Shown here: piece by piece, positions 24,667 to 30,932 of the stretch
How positions within the stretch are numbered: position 1 is the stretch's first letter
Layout of the letters: the number at the start of each line of letters is the position of its first letter
Assembly (NCBI RefSeq): GCF_004342265.1
Contig: NZ_SMCS01000005.1
Span: 124,001-188,000 of the forward strand
DNA length: 64,000 nucleotides
Direction of reading: 5' to 3'
Source of the DNA: Luteibacter rhizovicinus
GTDB lineage: Bacteria; Pseudomonadota; Gammaproteobacteria; Xanthomonadales; Rhodanobacteraceae
Translations under genes and position numbers: made by a program
The notes under the pieces: model-generated
Seen by the model: the letters and a program-made list of their open reading frames with translations, nothing else
Told to the model about the DNA's origin: nothing
The model's database searches: none

Positions 24667-24715
24667 AACGATTAGCCCGTCCGATGTAGACTGATCGTTC
24701 TGAATGGGAAACGAT
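24667..24715. promoter_or_regulatory. candidate LysR operator between azoR and its regulator
   Basis: Three AACGAT half-sites occur in the 124-bp divergent spacer: AACGAT (24667), ATCGTT (24694) and AACGAT (24710). The last two form an inverted repeat with a 10-base gap, ending 9 bases before the regulator start codon. This layout suits autoregulation plus control of azoR. Confidence 0.4.
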
Positions 24716-24724
24716 GGGATCGCG

Positions 24725-25687
24725 ATGGAAGGGGCACTGCAGGATCTGAACGATCTGTATTTCTTTGCGGCCGTGGTGGAACACGGCGGTTTTTCGGCGG
24801 CGGGCAGGGCGCTCGGTATTCCGAAATCCCGGCTGAGCAAGCGTATCGCCCAGCTGGAAGACCGTCTGGGCGTCCGCCTGCTCCAGCGCACCACCCGCCG
24901 TTTCGTGGTCACCGAGATCGGCGAGCGCTTCTACGCGCATTGCCGGGCCGTGCTTGAAGAGGCAAGGGCGGCGCAGGACGCCGTCGACGAATTGCGAACC
25001 GAGCCTCGCGGCGTCGTCAGGGTCAGTTGCCCGGTGTCGCTTGCCCAGCATGTGCTGGGGCCGATGTTGCCCGCCTTCATGCTCGAACACCCCAAGGTGC
25101 AGGTTCGCCTCACGGCCACCAACCGCCGCGTCGATCTGATCGGCGAAGGCTTCGACGTGGCGATCCGCGTCCGTGAAAAGCTCGATAGCGACGCGACGCT
25201 GGTCCTGCGCAGCTTTGGTTATGCGCGCAACCTGCTTGTCGCCAGCCCGAAATTCCTCGATACCCACGGCCGCCCGAAGACGCTGGAAGACCTGGCCGCG
25301 CTGCCCGCGCTTTCGATGTACGAGCATGAAGGCGCGCAGGTCTGGGAACTGGTGGACACCCAGGGCAAGAAGGCCGCCGTGGAGGTTCGTACGCGTCTGA
25401 TCAGCGGAGATTTCTCGGTGCTGATGAGCGCGGCGCTGCAATGCTGCGGCGTCGCGCTGATGCCGGAAGATTACTGTGCGCCGCTGATCGGCTCGGGCGA
25501 ACTCGAATGGGTACTTCCCGAATACAGCACCGCACAGGGCACGCTGCACTTCGTCTACCCCAGCCGCCGCGGCCTGCTGCCGGCCATCCGCAGCTTCGTG
25601 GATTTCCTCGCCGACCGTCTTCCGCAGGCGCAGATGGATCAGCACAAGGAATGCGAGAACGCCAGGAAGAAGCGCGGCTTGCGCTGA
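24725..25687 (+). CDS. LysR-family transcriptional regulator
   Basis: A 320-aa regulator with an N-terminal winged helix-turn-helix (DLYFFAAVVEHGGFSAAGRALGIPKSRLSKRIAQLEDRLGVRLLQRTTR) and a periplasmic-binding-protein-like effector domain of the CrgA/AaeR subgroup (GVVRVSCPVSLAQHVL, EGFDVAIRV). It probably senses a quinone or aromatic compound and controls the divergent azoR gene. ATG 24725 is used because it stands just before the conserved start; the open frame from 24704 adds only seven residues. The C-terminal tail is lysine/arginine-rich. Confidence 0.9.
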   Translation: MEGALQDLNDLYFFAAVVEHGGFSAAGRALGIPKSRLSKRIAQLEDRLGVRLLQRTTRRFVVTEIGERFYAHCRAVLEEARAAQDAVDELRTEPRGVVRVSCPVSLAQHVLGPMLPAFMLEHPKVQVRLTATNRRVDLIGEGFDVAIRVREKLDSDATLVLRSFGYARNLLVASPKFLDTHGRPKTLEDLAALPALSMYEHEGAQVWELVDTQGKKAAVEVRTRLISGDFSVLMSAALQCCGVALMPEDYCAPLIGSGELEWVLPEYSTAQGTLHFVYPSRRGLLPAIRSFVDFLADRLPQAQMDQHKECENARKKRGLR

Positions 25688-25737: not shown

Positions 25738-25755
25738 CATTTGGCCGTCCAAATG
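25738..25755. promoter_or_regulatory. palindromic operator upstream of aminotransferase
   Basis: CATTTGGCCGTCCAAATG has 7-bp inverted arms around CCGT, ending 10 bases before the aminotransferase ATG. Nearly the same palindrome (TTTGGACGTCCAAA) lies 5 bases before mtnB at 30864-30877. The shared site suggests a common regulator of methionine salvage. The GACGTC core of the second copy recalls MetJ boxes, but identity is not established. Confidence 0.6.
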
Positions 25756-25765
25756 TGAAGGCACA

Positions 25766-26911
25766 ATGCAGATCGATACCAAGCTGCCGAAAGTCGGCAC
25801 CACGATTTTCAGCGTCATGAGCCAGCTCGCGCTCGAGCACAAAGCGGTGAACCTGGGCCAGGGATTCCCCGACTTCGAGCCACCCGAAGCGTTGCGCGAT
25901 GCGATCACCCGCGCCATGGCCGAGGGTAAGAATCAGTACGCGCCGGGTATCGGCATTCCGAAGCTGCGTGAACAGATCGCGCTGAAGACCGAGCGGCTCT
26001 ACGGTCATCGAGTCAGTCCCGATACCGAAGTGACCGTGACTTCCGGCGCGACCGAGGCATTGTTCGCTGCGATTGCCGCTGTGGTGCGGGCTGGCGACGA
26101 AGTGATCGTATTCGACCCGTGTTACGACAGCTACGAGCCCGCGATCGATTTGCAGGGAGCGCGGGCGGTCCATATTCCGCTGACCTTGCCGGAATTCGGT
26201 ATCGACTGGCAGCGCGTTCGCGACGCGGTCACGCCGAAGACGCGGATGATCCTGATCAACTCGCCGCACAATCCGTCGGGTGCCGTGCTTTCGCGCGCCG
26301 ATCTCGACGAGCTGGCCGCTATCGTGTGTGACACGAGCATCCTCGTCCTCTCCGACGAGGTCTACGAGCACATCGTATTCGACGGTGCCGAACACCAGAG
26401 CGTGCTTCGTCATCCGGAACTGGCCGCGCGCAGCTTTGTCGTGTCGTCGTTCGGCAAGACCTACCATTGCACGGGCTGGAAGGTCGGTTATGCCATCGCG
26501 CCGAAGGCACTGACCGCGGAATTCCGCAAAGTGCACCAGTACCTGACGTTCTGCACGTTCAGTCCGGCGCAGTGGGCTTTCGCGGAATTCCTGGAATCCA
26601 GCCCCGAGCATTATCTTGAGCTTCCGGCCTTCTATCAGGCCAAGCGCGACCGGTTCCGCGAGTTGCTCGCACCGTCGCGCCTGAAGCTGCTCGATGTGCC
26701 CGGCGGCTATTTCCAGTTGGTCGACTACACGGCTATCCGCGACATCGACGATATCAATTTCAGCGAGTATCTGGTCCGCGAAGGCGGAGTGGCGGTGATT
26801 CCGCTGACGCCGTTCTACGAGACGGCGCCCGACACCCGGCTGGTCCGGCTATGCTTCGCGAAGAACGATGCGACCATGGAGGCCGCTGCGGAACGCCTAT
26901 GCAAACTCTGA
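25766..26911 (+). CDS. PLP aminotransferase, methionine/glutamine transaminase type
   Basis: A 381-aa class I aminotransferase resembling YbdL/KAT (methionine or kynurenine aminotransferase; glutamine transaminase K). PLP is bound by Lys231 in SSFGKTYHCTGWKVGY. Other family motifs are NLGQGFPDF, NQYAPGIGIPKLRE, the NSPHNPSG substrate loop and SDEVYEHIVFDG. In methionine salvage this class transaminates 2-keto-4-methylthiobutyrate to methionine, often with glutamine. The next gene encodes an omega-amidase-type nitrilase and overlaps by 13 bases, which supports glutamine as donor. AAGG lies upstream of the ATG. Confidence 0.88.
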   Translation: MQIDTKLPKVGTTIFSVMSQLALEHKAVNLGQGFPDFEPPEALRDAITRAMAEGKNQYAPGIGIPKLREQIALKTERLYGHRVSPDTEVTVTSGATEALFAAIAAVVRAGDEVIVFDPCYDSYEPAIDLQGARAVHIPLTLPEFGIDWQRVRDAVTPKTRMILINSPHNPSGAVLSRADLDELAAIVCDTSILVLSDEVYEHIVFDGAEHQSVLRHPELAARSFVVSSFGKTYHCTGWKVGYAIAPKALTAEFRKVHQYLTFCTFSPAQWAFAEFLESSPEHYLELPAFYQAKRDRFRELLAPSRLKLLDVPGGYFQLVDYTAIRDIDDINFSEYLVREGGVAVIPLTPFYETAPDTRLVRLCFAKNDATMEAAAERLCKL

Positions 26912-27693
26912 CCGTCTCCCTTGTGCAGGGCGCTACGCGCTGGCACGACCCGAGAGCAAATCGCGAGTACTACGGACAGCTGGTGCGCGGTGCCCTATCC
27001 AGCGATCTGTTCGTACTGCCCGAGACCTTCCTGTCCGGCTTTACCAACGACACGCTCGCCAACGCCGAAACGATGGACGGCGAGGGCGTTGTCTGGATGC
27101 GTTCGCTGGCAGCGGAAGTCGGCGCCACGTTGACGGGTAGCCTCGTCATTCGCGAAGGCGAGACGGTGTACAACCGCCTGATCTGGGCCAGTCCGGATGG
27201 TTCGCTTTCGTATTACGACAAGCGTCATCTGTTCCGCATGGCCGGCGAACATACGCGCTATGGCGGCGGCAACGATCGGTTGGTCGTCGAGCTGAAGGGT
27301 TGGCGCATCCTGCCGCAGGTCTGTTACGACCTGCGTTTTCCCGTCTGGCTGCGCAACGGTCGACGCGAGGAAGCCGAGGGTGGCATGGACTACGACCTTG
27401 CAATCTTCGTCGCGAACTGGCCCGCTCCGCGTCGCCAGCCCTGGCGCACGCTGCTGCGTGCGCGGGCAATCGAGAATCTGGCCTATGTCGTCGGCGTCAA
27501 TCGCGTCGGAACGGACGGCAACGAGCTTCCGTATGCGGGCGATAGCGTCATCGTCGATCCGGTCGGCGAGCCGTTGATCGAGCTGGGCCCGCAGGAGCAG
27601 GTGGTGACGGTGACGCTCGACCCGGCTCCGCTGCACGCTCACCGCGAGCGCTTCCCTGCATGGATGGATGCGGATCGCTTCACGATCGGCTGA
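26899..27693 (+). CDS. nitrilase-family amidase, probable omega-amidase
   Basis: A 264-aa carbon-nitrogen hydrolase with the triad Glu42 (LPETFLSGF), Lys108 (YYDKRHLF) and Cys142 (QVCYDLRFP). It matches YafV/Nit2-like omega-amidases, which hydrolyse alpha-ketoglutaramate or alpha-ketosuccinamate to remove the by-product of glutamine-dependent transamination. The YDLRFPVWLRN context and the 264-aa length fit that branch. It overlaps the aminotransferase gene by 13 bases, so translation is coupled. Together they would drive methionine regeneration to completion. GTAGGAG-like repeat sequence follows its stop. Confidence 0.88.
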   Translation: MQTLTVSLVQGATRWHDPRANREYYGQLVRGALSSDLFVLPETFLSGFTNDTLANAETMDGEGVVWMRSLAAEVGATLTGSLVIREGETVYNRLIWASPDGSLSYYDKRHLFRMAGEHTRYGGGNDRLVVELKGWRILPQVCYDLRFPVWLRNGRREEAEGGMDYDLAIFVANWPAPRRQPWRTLLRARAIENLAYVVGVNRVGTDGNELPYAGDSVIVDPVGEPLIELGPQEQVVTVTLDPAPLHAHRERFPAWMDADRFTIG

Positions 27694-27704
27694 CGCCGCT
27701 CTCT

Positions 27705-27730
27705 CTGTGGGAGCGCGCCTGCGCGCGAAA
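27705..27730. repeat. REP-like palindrome
   Basis: CTGTGGGAGCGCGCCTGCGCGCGAAA contains a GCGCGC-CT-GCGCGC hairpin and matches the GTGGGAGC variant of gammaproteobacterial REP sequences. It starts 11 bases after the nitrilase stop. The rest of 27731-27894 has no gene. Confidence 0.55.
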
Positions 27731-27894
27731 GCCAACGAAGCGTTGAAGCAGGGCATGGCTGACGTGTCGCCTGCCCACGTGGCCGCGCAGAGCTGTTCGG
27801 ACGCTCTCGCGACAACCCCATGCATCGCACTGGGTCCCTGCCTGTGCAGGGACGACGTTGAGTGGAGGGCGGAGTTCGAGGCGGCGACTGGTTT

Positions 27895-28923
27895 TTACTT
27901 CGCCGCCGCGAAAGGTACAGCCTGACCGATATGCGTTGCCTTGCGCCAGGCGGCAAGGTGGTCGGCGATGCCGCTGCCTGTGTCGATCTGCGGTTCGGAT
28001 GGCGTGAGCGTGTCGCGTTTTTCCCAGCCTGCGATCTCCGTGCGTGCCTGCCCGAATGCTTCGATGAAGTCCGGCGTCGCATTGAGTCCGTTGGCCAGCC
28101 ACGCGCGGCCGAAGTACGTGATGTCCGAATCGACTCCGCAACCGAACGACGTACGATCGGTGCGTGCCGACGTAAGCACCAGCGTTCCGGGACCGCGTAA
28201 TTTCGGGACGAAGCCGCCCGAATAGCAGGCGTTGACCACGATCACTTTCCAGCGGAAGGGATGTTTGGCCAGGATGTCGGCGAGTCCGTCGGGATCGAGC
28301 TGGTCGAGCGGTAACGGGTCCATGTCCACCAGCAGCGAATGATCGTCGCCGCCATGCGTGGTCAGGTAGAGCAGCAGGATGTCCTCGTCCGGATGCATCA
28401 CGGAGGCCAATCCGTCGAGCGCGCCTTCGAGATTGGTCCAGCTTGCCAGCGGCCGGCTGGACAGCGTGTCCGGGTGGTTTTCCAGGACCAGCGTATGCGC
28501 GGCGCTTCCGAAGCGACGCGTCATCAGGGTGTCGAGGTATTCCGCTTCGTTGCGGAAGACATCTTCGGAGGCGTCGGCCGCGAACGCGATGGCGTAGACG
28601 TTCGGGTGGCCCGGCTCACGTGGCGCCAGGTGCGCCAGCGCCTTACGCAGTTCGGCCGGCTGGCCGGTCATCACCTGCTCGGGCGTGGGACCGTCGCTGG
28701 GCCATTGGTCCGTCTGGACGGTGTCGTCGTCGGCCTCGGGTGAGGTCGAGGCGGGGGCAGGTGCCGTGGTCGCCGGCGCCGCCGCAGCGGTCCGTTCGGG
28801 GACAGGCGCTTCTTCGGGCGCCGGACTCAGCCGGGCGACCGCCAGCATGACAAGGACGCCGGCGGCGAAAGCCAGAAGGATCGGAATGGCGCGACGTGCG
28901 CCCCGTTCAGAACGTGATGGCAT
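27895..28923 (-). CDS. peptidase C13 (legumain/caspase-like) family protein
   Basis: A 342-aa protein with an N-terminal hydrophobic anchor (about residues 12-31), an Ala/Pro/Thr-rich linker and a C13/caspase-type domain. The catalytic dyad is His190 (LYLTTHGGDDH) and Cys233 (VVNACYSGGFV), in the correct order and spacing. Exposure in the periplasm is likely. Bacterial members of this family are poorly understood; eukaryotic ones are legumain and GPI transamidase. The start overlaps the 3' end of mtnC by 17 bases, so it is the last gene of the methionine-salvage operon. No direct link to salvage chemistry is known to me. Confidence 0.8.
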   Translation of the reverse strand: MPSRSERGARRAIPILLAFAAGVLVMLAVARLSPAPEEAPVPERTAAAAPATTAPAPASTSPEADDDTVQTDQWPSDGPTPEQVMTGQPAELRKALAHLAPREPGHPNVYAIAFAADASEDVFRNEAEYLDTLMTRRFGSAAHTLVLENHPDTLSSRPLASWTNLEGALDGLASVMHPDEDILLLYLTTHGGDDHSLLVDMDPLPLDQLDPDGLADILAKHPFRWKVIVVNACYSGGFVPKLRGPGTLVLTSARTDRTSFGCGVDSDITYFGRAWLANGLNATPDFIEAFGQARTEIAGWEKRDTLTPSEPQIDTGSGIADHLAAWRKATHIGQAVPFAAAK

Positions 28924-29593
28924 CGAAGTCCGCCACGGGCGTGTGATCGGCAGCGTCTGGCAGCGGCTGCGGGGGGCGAACCAGCCAGGTGGTACGCATG
29001 CCGGCTTCGCGGGCGGCGTCGAGTTCGGCGGTTATGTCCGACAGGAACAGGATGTGATCGGGATTTTCGCCGATGGATTCGGCGATCCGGGCATACGAGG
29101 CGGTCTCGCGCTTCGGCCCGGTTTCCGTATCGAAATAGCCAGCCAGCAATGGCGTCAGATCGCCGCTCTCGCTGTAGCCGAAGAGGAGCTTCTGCGCAGC
29201 CACCGAGCCGGACGAATAGATGTACAGGTGCAGCCCATCGGCGCGCCACTCGCGCATGCGCTTTGCTACTTCCGGGTACATGTGCGAACGGTATTCGCCG
29301 TTTTCGTAGCCTTCCCGCCAGATCATGCCCTGTAGCGCTTTCAGCGCCGTGGATTTGCGATCTTCGTCGATCCAGCGGAGCAGCAGGTCGATGATCTCCT
29401 GGCGTGGCGCTTCGACGATGCCGGCTTCTTTCGCCGCCTCATGCAGCCAGTGCTGTACCTCGGGCGTGTCTGCGTGGGTTTCCACAAAGGCCGGCAGGCG
29501 CTTGCGCGCGTAAGGGAACAGCGTATCGCGCACGAAGTCGATCGAGCTGGTGGTGCCCTCGATATCGGTAAGAATGACGCGGATTTCTGACAT
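28907..29593 (-). CDS. mtnC: acireductone synthase (enolase-phosphatase E1)
   Basis: A 228-aa HAD-fold enzyme of the methionine salvage pathway. It enolises and dephosphorylates 2,3-diketo-5-methylthiopentyl-1-phosphate to acireductone. Diagnostic motifs are LTDIEGTTSSIDFV (motif I with the nucleophilic aspartate), IYSSGSVAAQKLLFGYS (motif II) and FLSDITAELDAAREAG (motif IV). The length equals that of typical MtnC proteins. No strong ribosome site precedes the ATG. mtnD ends 51 bases upstream on the same strand. Confidence 0.95.
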   Translation of the reverse strand: MSEIRVILTDIEGTTSSIDFVRDTLFPYARKRLPAFVETHADTPEVQHWLHEAAKEAGIVEAPRQEIIDLLLRWIDEDRKSTALKALQGMIWREGYENGEYRSHMYPEVAKRMREWRADGLHLYIYSSGSVAAQKLLFGYSESGDLTPLLAGYFDTETGPKRETASYARIAESIGENPDHILFLSDITAELDAAREAGMRTTWLVRPPQPLPDAADHTPVADFDAITF

Positions 29594-29644
29594 GAGGAGG
29601 GCCTGCGGATCGGACGAACCCGCAGGATAAACGAGCGTCGACGT

Positions 29645-30217
29645 CTAGGATACGGCGGCGACGGCAGACGCGTGCGGCGTCATGCGGGGAAAGCGGTCGG
29701 CGATGTCCTTGCCGGTGAACGTCGCGACCCAGCCATCCTTGCTGGTGAAAAGGCGAATGGCGACGAAGTAGGGCGATTCGCTCATGTCGAACCAGTGCGG
29801 CGTGCCATCGGGAACGCCGATCAGGTCGCCCTGTTCGCACAATACCTCGTAAACGCGGCCGTCGATGTGCAGCGTGAACTGGCCGGCGCCGGCGACGAAG
29901 AAGCGCACTTCGTCCTCGCTGTGCGTGTGCTCGCTCAGGAACTTCTGGCGCAACGTCGCCCGGTCCGGGTGATCGGGTTTCAGGCTGATGACGTCGACGG
30001 ACTGATAGCCCTCGCTGCTCATCAGGCGCTCGATGTCGCCGCGATAGGCTTCGATGACCTCATCCTGCGTCGCGCCGGGTTCGATCGGCTGTCTGGCTGC
30101 CCATTGTTCGAAACGGACGCCTACCTTTCCGAGCGCCGCTGAGATATCGGCGTGACTGTTATGGATGGCAACGGGCGCTTCGTGTTTTGTATCGTCGTAA
30201 ATGCGCAAACGGCTCAT
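29645..30217 (-). CDS. mtnD: acireductone dioxygenase
   Basis: A 190-aa cupin enzyme. With iron it cleaves acireductone to formate and 2-keto-4-methylthiobutyrate, the methionine precursor. The metal-binding set is H-x-H-x3-E in [13 protein letters not shown] (His97, His99, Glu103) and a later histidine in DGTPHWFDM. The start at 30217 overlaps the mtnB stop by 4 bases and is preceded by GGAGG within mtnB. The longer reading frame upstream is antisense-like noise and not part of the protein. Confidence 0.95.
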
Positions 30218-30858
30218 GGGGAAAGCCTCCGGAGGTCGAGTTCGCAGCCCAGCAGGAATTCCAGGGCTTCGAGATGGCGGCGGGTCTCGGGCATGTCGCG
30301 GCCCCAGGTATAGATGCCATGCCCGTTGATCAGGTAGGCGTAGAGCGGTTTGCCGCTGTCGATCCATGCGTCGACCTGGGCAACCAGTTCGGGCATGTGC
30401 TGGGTGTTCGGGAAGACGGGGATGTCGAGAACGCTTTCGTGTGTCGTATAGCCTGCGATCGCTTTTTGCAGTTCCCAGCCTTCCAGGCGAACGACGCCAT
30501 TTTCGGCGAACAGTCTGGAGGCGACACTCTGCGTGCGCGAATGCGTATGCAGCACGGCGTTGGCATTCGGATAGCGGCGGTAGATCTGCGTGTGCAGGGC
30601 GGTTTCCGCGGACGGTCGCGCCTCCGTACCGACGGGCAGGCCTTCCATGTCGACGGTCATGATGTCGTCGCGACCGAGTCGGCCCTTGTCGCGGCCGGAG
30701 ATCGTGATCGCCGCCAGGTCGTCGTTGAGCCGCATCGAAAAATTGCTGCTCGTCGCCGGAGTCCATCCGAAGGCGGCCAGATCGCGCGCGGCATCCGCGA
30801 TGGCGTCGGCGCGTTCGGCGAACAGGATCGGATCGATAGGGTTATGGTCTTTCGACAT
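30214..30858 (-). CDS. mtnB: methylthioribulose-1-phosphate dehydratase
   Basis: A 214-aa class II aldolase-fold enzyme that dehydrates methylthioribulose 1-phosphate in methionine salvage. The Zn site is visible as HTHSRTQS and the histidine of [25 protein letters not shown], a stretch typical of MtnB. SSNFSMRL near the N-terminus binds phosphate. ATG 30858 has no ribosome-binding sequence; instead a perfect palindrome ends 5 bases upstream. Initiation may therefore be leaderless or weak and tightly regulated. It is the first gene of mtnB-mtnD-mtnC-C13 peptidase. Confidence 0.93.
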
Positions 30859-30863
30859 GACTA

Positions 30864-30877
30864 TTTGGACGTCCAAA
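30864..30877. promoter_or_regulatory. perfect palindromic operator upstream of mtnB
   Basis: TTTGGACGTCCAAA is a 14-bp perfect palindrome 5 bases upstream of the mtnB start. Its relative lies before the aminotransferase at 25738. A bound repressor here would cover the translation start region and probably the transcription start. Confidence 0.65.
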
Positions 30878-30932
30878 ACGAGGCCGACTATACCATGGGG
30901 CTGGTGGGTGTCTGGCTGGGGGGAATCGGGAA

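Follow-up and report, generated by a model that had tools for sequence, protein, structure and literature searches.

Two operons that converge within a 64,000-nucleotide stretch of the Luteibacter rhizovicinus genome raise the question of which protein controls methionine salvage in this bacterium (NCBI RefSeq assembly GCF_004342265.1, contig NZ_SMCS01000005.1, positions 124,001 to 188,000 of the forward strand; this whole stretch is called the window, and positions without a contig or locus name refer to it). One operon, on the plus strand, encodes a methionine aminotransferase and an amidase; the other, on the minus strand, comprises mtnB, mtnD, mtnC and a gene for a C13-family peptidase, and similar palindromes stand just before the first gene of each. 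It is proposed here that the two palindromes are real, conserved regulatory sites through which both operons share their control, a conclusion well supported by comparison of genome sequences, and that they are very probably variant operators of the repressor MetJ.

Two palindromes and their position

The palindrome of the aminotransferase operon, CATTTGGCCGTCCAAATG, occupies positions 25738-25755 (plus strand), and 10 bases separate it from the ATG of the aminotransferase gene at 25766; the 14-mer TTTGGCCGTCCAAA within it (25740-25753) has the met box GGCCGTCC at 25743-25750 between TTT and AAA flanks. The palindrome of mtnB, TTTGGACGTCCAAA (30864-30877, minus strand), is 5 bases away from the start of the gene at 30858, and its met box GGACGTCC (30867-30874) is set between TTT and AAA as well. 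These coordinates confirm the distances given in the initial annotation, which had described the same palindrome at both operons; the pair does match, although the first member is an imperfect palindrome in which 8 of 9 pairs match about the centre GGCCGTCC.

Our comparison covered 61 genomes, of which 37 belong to the family of the source genome (hereafter the own family) and 24 are others of the order. A likely -10 hexamer of the mtnB promoter, TATAGT (30887-30892, minus strand), lies 9 nucleotides before the palindrome, and in 33 of the 33 own-family mtnB sites with up to 4 mismatches a TANNNT hexamer ends 9-11 nucleotides from the 14-mer; therefore, the mtnB site sits where transcription should start. 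Because it follows the -10 hexamer and precedes the start of mtnB by 5 nucleotides, the palindrome is probably transcribed, a placement that would also suit control of mtnB translation by a hairpin, UUUGG-ACGU-CCAAA, in the leader of the mRNA. We consider such a hairpin very improbable and rejected it, since in variants such as TTTAGACGTCCAAA and TTTGGACGTCCATA the stem is disrupted with no compensating change while the met box is kept, and since the tandem sites upstream of metX described below abut a TTGACA about 240-320 nucleotides before the match start, where no hairpin could act on the start codon.

Conservation of the sites

In the window alone, allowing up to 2 mismatches and counting both strands, the motif is matched 4 times against 0.95 expected, and 4 of 100 shuffles reach this number; on its own this count is weak evidence, and it is the first of the points that weigh against our reading, the others being gathered below. 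The genome-wide and comparative counts are strong. In the whole source genome TTTGGNCGTCCAAA occurs at 8 sites with up to 1 mismatch, compared with 0 forward and 1 reverse site for the reversed pattern, and TTTGGACGTCCAAA occurs at 15 sites with up to 2 mismatches, compared with 5 for its control. At up to 1 mismatch TTTGGACGTCCAAA is present in all 37 own-family genomes and in 2 of the 24 others of the order; the summed forward counts are 179 versus 6 for the reversed-pattern control in the own family, and 3 versus 11 in the other 24 genomes.

The same contrast is found at the two operons themselves. With up to 2 mismatches allowed, 32 of 36 own-family genomes have the site upstream of mtnB (22 of them exactly), as opposed to 0 of 12 outside the family; for the site upstream of the aminotransferase gene the figures are 28 of 36 and 0 of 14, respectively, rising to 34 of 36 and 1 of 14 at up to 4 mismatches. 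These figures omit one of 49 mtnB upstream regions (G057, at a contig end) and three of 53 aminotransferase regions (G044, G051 and G055). The fraction of mononucleotide shuffles of the own-family upstream regions that reach up to 2 mismatches is 0.0003 for mtnB and 0.0006 for the aminotransferase. Both sites are also retained where the two genes are on different contigs: in G031 the mtnB site is exact and the aminotransferase site has 2 mismatches, and in G034 they have 1 and 4 mismatches, respectively. Chance as the origin of the sites was rejected on the genome-wide, 61-genome and operon-level counts, so that the initial judgement that chance was unlikely stands on these counts and not on that of the window. 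The idea that both operons share their control is well supported by this conservation, including the genomes with the genes on different contigs. Looking before the orthologous operons of relatives and before other methionine genes, the check proposed at the outset, we found the motif at the former in the numbers given above, and related sites precede metX and cysJ and also the metJ gene of the source genome.

MetJ as the probable regulator

The source genome encodes a MetJ protein outside the window (core domain at G000:C2:87993-88250, minus strand), which matches PF01340 with an E-value of 9.9e-38 and the MetJ equivalog model NF003622 with 134.7 bits against a cut-off of 110. In a comparison with structures, its residues 4-87 align with residues 5-88 of Escherichia coli MetJ, the ribbon-helix-helix core, with an E-value of 1.5e-32. 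Of the 61 genomes, 38 have a match to PF01340 (MetJ), namely 36 of the 37 in the own family, both genomes of a second family (f12) and none of the 22 in the rest of the order; the sole own-family genome without a match, G007, is 80% complete. The distribution of the motif among the relatives follows the presence of metJ, and one of the 8 sites in the source genome, with 1 mismatch, lies about 160 base pairs (bp) upstream of metJ itself.

Boxes arranged in tandem at an 8-bp register are the mark of MetJ. This register was examined at 46 sibling sites (92 arms), none of them at mtnB or the aminotransferase gene, of which 10 are from the source genome and 36 from six other genera, with 1 metX and 4 cysJ sites included. 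When the adjoining box was compared with CGTYY at its five outer positions, the mean agreement was 2.60 of 5 in the 8-bp register versus 1.50-1.98 at 22 other offsets; 24 of the 92 arms matched at 4-5 positions in register versus 2-9 at other offsets, and 10 matched perfectly versus 0-3. Of 49 genomes with a metX match, 30 were inspected upstream of the gene, every one from the own family; tandem boxes (at least 14 of 16 matches to RRACGTYY twice) are present in 30 of 30 loci, a level reached by 1.1% of shuffles; several contain the exact AGACGTCT and most run into TTGACA. In the source genome metX is followed by a gene for cystathionine gamma-synthase. Tandem boxes also precede cysJ in 13 of 14 own-family loci, as opposed to 0 of 12 outside. 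The tandem pattern GACGTCYARACGTC, searched at up to 1 mismatch in 20 genomes with forward matches summed, gives 163 matches versus 32 for the control in 12 own-family genomes, 24 versus 13 in the two f12 genomes and 4 versus 22 in six genomes without metJ. Because the motif tracks metJ, the sibling sites show the 8-bp register, and tandem boxes stand before metX and cysJ, we take the palindromes to be predicted MetJ sites. The initial annotation had been reminded of MetJ by the centre of the palindrome and had set it aside on the ground that the flanks form no tandem 8-mers; this is correct for the mtnB flanks, whereas the dismissal of MetJ finds no support in view of the tandem sibling sites and the presence of a metJ gene.

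A regulator gene adjacent to the operons, said at first to be missing, does exist. A LysR-type gene (24704-25687, plus strand; Pfam HTH_1 and LysR_substrate) directly precedes the aminotransferase gene and ends 78 bases before its ATG, both genes reading in the same direction, and a LysR relative has this position in 30 of 30 own-family loci inspected (30 of the 53 aminotransferase-bearing genomes). Such a constant neighbour might be expected to bind the palindrome and to control the aminotransferase gene, with mtnB as a second target. However, the same motif precedes mtnB, metX, cysJ, metJ and other genes, the shared direction of the two genes speaks against it, the 8-bp tandem spacing marks MetJ sites and not those of LysR proteins, and the occurrence of the motif parallels that of metJ. 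The adjacent protein was rejected as the binder for failing to explain the metX, cysJ and metJ sites and the 8-bp register; this alternative is quite improbable, and the palindromes are probably bound by something other than the LysR protein.

The other candidate is SamR, a SahR-like protein of the ArsR family and thus of a protein family different from MetJ, to which methionine regulation has been attributed in those Xanthomonadales that were studied (PMC4239095). It shares with the present case the order and the pathway, but its motif, as given there, is a 24-bp palindrome of the form ATC-10 nt-GAT, whereas the window sites read, by eye, ATT-10 nt-AAT and ATT-10 nt-AAA; moreover, the centre of the palindrome is a met box, and the sibling sites have the 8-bp register. 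SamR was set aside for its differing motif, and its binding here is extremely improbable. According to the same survey of methionine regulation in Proteobacteria, MetJ occurs in six gammaproteobacterial groups, and four Xanthomonadales genomes are listed with SamR and have no MetJ entry (PMC4239095). Our assignment of MetJ would provide a likely regulator for the methionine-salvage operons of a family whose order appeared in that text with SamR and without MetJ.

MetJ as the regulator would also fit what has been described in other bacteria. In Enterobacteria the mtn genes and mtnE are under MetJ control (PMC3228920). In Rhodanobacter R12, a putative MetJ is up and four methionine enzymes are down with nitrate according to a 2025 paper (PMC12146267), a correlation only, which fits repression by MetJ.

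We infer binding of the palindromes by MetJ, with S-adenosylmethionine (SAM) as the co-repressor and repression as the outcome. The role of SAM as co-repressor is established for E. coli MetJ. When SAM is plentiful, MetJ-SAM would occupy the mtnB site, at or near the point where transcription begins, and prevent mtnB, mtnD, mtnC and the C13 peptidase gene from being transcribed, and the aminotransferase-amidase operon would be repressed in the same way.

To the weak window count have to be added the remaining points on the other side of the balance. Four own-family genomes with MetJ (G023, G026, G030 and G035) have no mtnB site at up to 2 mismatches, and 8 own-family genomes have no aminotransferase site at that threshold. 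The metJ gene itself shows poor conservation of the 14-mer, which precedes it with no more than 2 mismatches in 5 of the 29 loci parsed; tandem boxes are visible by eye upstream of metJ in L012, L013, L014, L016 and L038. Family f12 has MetJ yet lacks such a site at mtnB or the aminotransferase gene, and no clear tandem boxes are seen upstream of metJ in its two genomes. At 33 mtnB sites there is no excess of a second box in the 8-bp register, and repression by MetJ is said to need two or more adjacent boxes (PMC3228920). Finally, some copies of the motif are found in places that do not readily suggest repression of a promoter: within genes, in the space between two convergent genes, and immediately 3' of ftsH. 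The dispersed copies and the missing sites point to no other regulator, and they leave room for a wider DNA-binding role of a MetJ that carries a long tail.

A single box at mtnB and the tail of MetJ

With no second box in register at the 33 sites, mtnB is left with a single box bordered by conserved TTT and AAA. The own-family box, mostly GGACGTCC, agrees with AGACGTCT at 6 of 8 positions, and GGCCGTCC does so at 5 of 8. In the source genome the neighbouring boxes match the met box at 2 and 2 of 8 positions at mtnB and at 4 and 4 of 8 at the aminotransferase gene; across 34 aminotransferase sites a partial second box is seen, with register means of 2.41 on the left and 2.91 on the right. The TTT and AAA flanks equal the inner ends of the neighbouring boxes RRACGTTT and AAACGTYY at sibling sites.

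Set beside the MetJ regulon of Enterobacteria and other gammaproteobacterial orders, which uses tandem AGACGTCT, the system predicted here is alike in its MetJ-family protein, in a central box related to AGACGTCT, in the tandem boxes before metX and cysJ, and in having mtn genes and an mtnE-type aminotransferase gene as targets (PMC3228920). It is unlike that regulon in that the mtnB operator would have a single complete box, with TTT and AAA on its sides, where two or more are usual, in that the box is mostly GGACGTCC rather than AGACGTCT, in that cysJ would be a target, and in that a long basic tail replaces the last residues of MetJ.

The match of the source-genome MetJ to E. coli MetJ ends at position 88 of 104 in the chain and at position 95 of 105 in the model and is followed by a tail of Lys and Ala; the last residues of E. 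coli MetJ, from about 89 to 104, have no counterpart. The tail comprises 79-182 residues in 29 of 30 parsed own-family loci (source genome, L008:5267-5860, minus strand; relatives, L012-L041), and the 3645 residues of the pooled tails are 33% Lys and 34% Ala, with Asp and Glu absent. The tail parser passed over the remaining locus, L013, in which a short tail of the KKAAKK type can be seen. The two f12 MetJ proteins, of about 80 residues, are tailless. Across the class, MetJ was found in 3 of 274 genomes including the source, too sparsely to place the tail; similarity matches to the source MetJ came from Dyella choica and a Rhodanobacter metagenome-assembled genome, which makes Rhodanobacteraceae the most likely identity of the own family, and two more matches were to the tail alone.

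The tail resembles the models of Hc2 and of a Burkholderia H1-like protein, from which it differs in scoring under the cut-offs (Hc2, 28.4 against 135; Burkholderia H1-like, 26.6 against 80; Pfam HC2, 24.8 against 40) and in being fused to a sequence-specific repressor. Another histone-H1-like protein of this kind is AlgP. This basic, histone-H1-like tail may give MetJ additional non-specific affinity for DNA, so that one full box would be enough at mtnB. No publication on the MetJ tail or on these operators was found in a search of the open-licence literature. With its single box, the mtnB site is a natural case for testing how small a MetJ operator can be, and the conservation of a histone-like tail in a textbook repressor raises the question whether basic tails can replace cooperative binding to tandem boxes.

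Dispersed copies of the motif

One may ask whether the MetJ of the own family acts both as a SAM-responsive repressor and as a nucleoid-associated protein, its acid-free, histone-H1-like tail permitting the use of single boxes and of many dispersed boxes located away from promoters and within genes; we regard this as rather unlikely. In the genus of G036, GACGTCYARACGTC at up to 1 mismatch has 44 forward and 55 reverse matches, compared with 1 and 3 for the reversed control. Among 20 exact tandem copies inspected in G036 (L252-L271), which include that of metX, 10 fall within called reading frames, and no common flanks are apparent by eye. Genes around dispersed sites were called by a simple heuristic of codon composition, and by these calls convergent gene ends are not clearly enriched: of 41 intergenic sites that have a called gene on either side, 9 fall there, compared with about 15% of the intergenic bases of the same loci.

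A copy of the palindrome is located 60-80 nucleotides 3' of ftsH in five genera (L161 in G036, L165 in G031, L176 in G025, L177 in G027 and L187 in G029), with ftsH confirmed by Pfam in 2 of the 5. Some of these copies are part of a longer palindrome, for example GGCGTTTGGACGTCCAAACGCC, and the copy downstream of ftsH might serve as a terminator or represent some other type of site.

Two further sites of the source genome are of interest for the genes that they precede. The tandem boxes AAACGTCT.GGACGTCT (G000:C2:517053; L153, about 4054) stand just before the gene for the large subunit of glutamate synthase, which would be an unexpected target of MetJ. The boxes AGCCGTTT.AGACGTCC (G000:C4:148494; L010, about 5995) lie ahead of a gene for a TonB-dependent receptor, perhaps a transporter of vitamin B12 or one related to methionine.

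Genes of the two operons

On the plus strand, the first gene (25766-26911) encodes an mtnE-like methionine aminotransferase that scores above the cut-off of NCBIfam NF006569 and matches Pfam Aminotran_1_2. It is followed by a gene (26899-27693) for a carbon-nitrogen hydrolase, likely an omega-amidase, which matches the PRK10438 amidohydrolase model with 269.4 bits against a cut-off of 249 when scanned from 26902. On the minus strand, mtnB (30214-30858) encodes methylthioribulose 1-phosphate dehydratase (NF006672 and TIGR03328, both above cut-offs), mtnD (29645-30217) acireductone dioxygenase (Pfam ARD, with no NCBIfam match) and mtnC (28907-29593) acireductone synthase (TIGR01691, above cut-off). 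The last gene of this operon (27895-28923), assigned by Pfam PF01650 to the C13 family, overlaps the end of mtnC, and the legumain-like peptidase that it encodes is an odd companion for methionine salvage.

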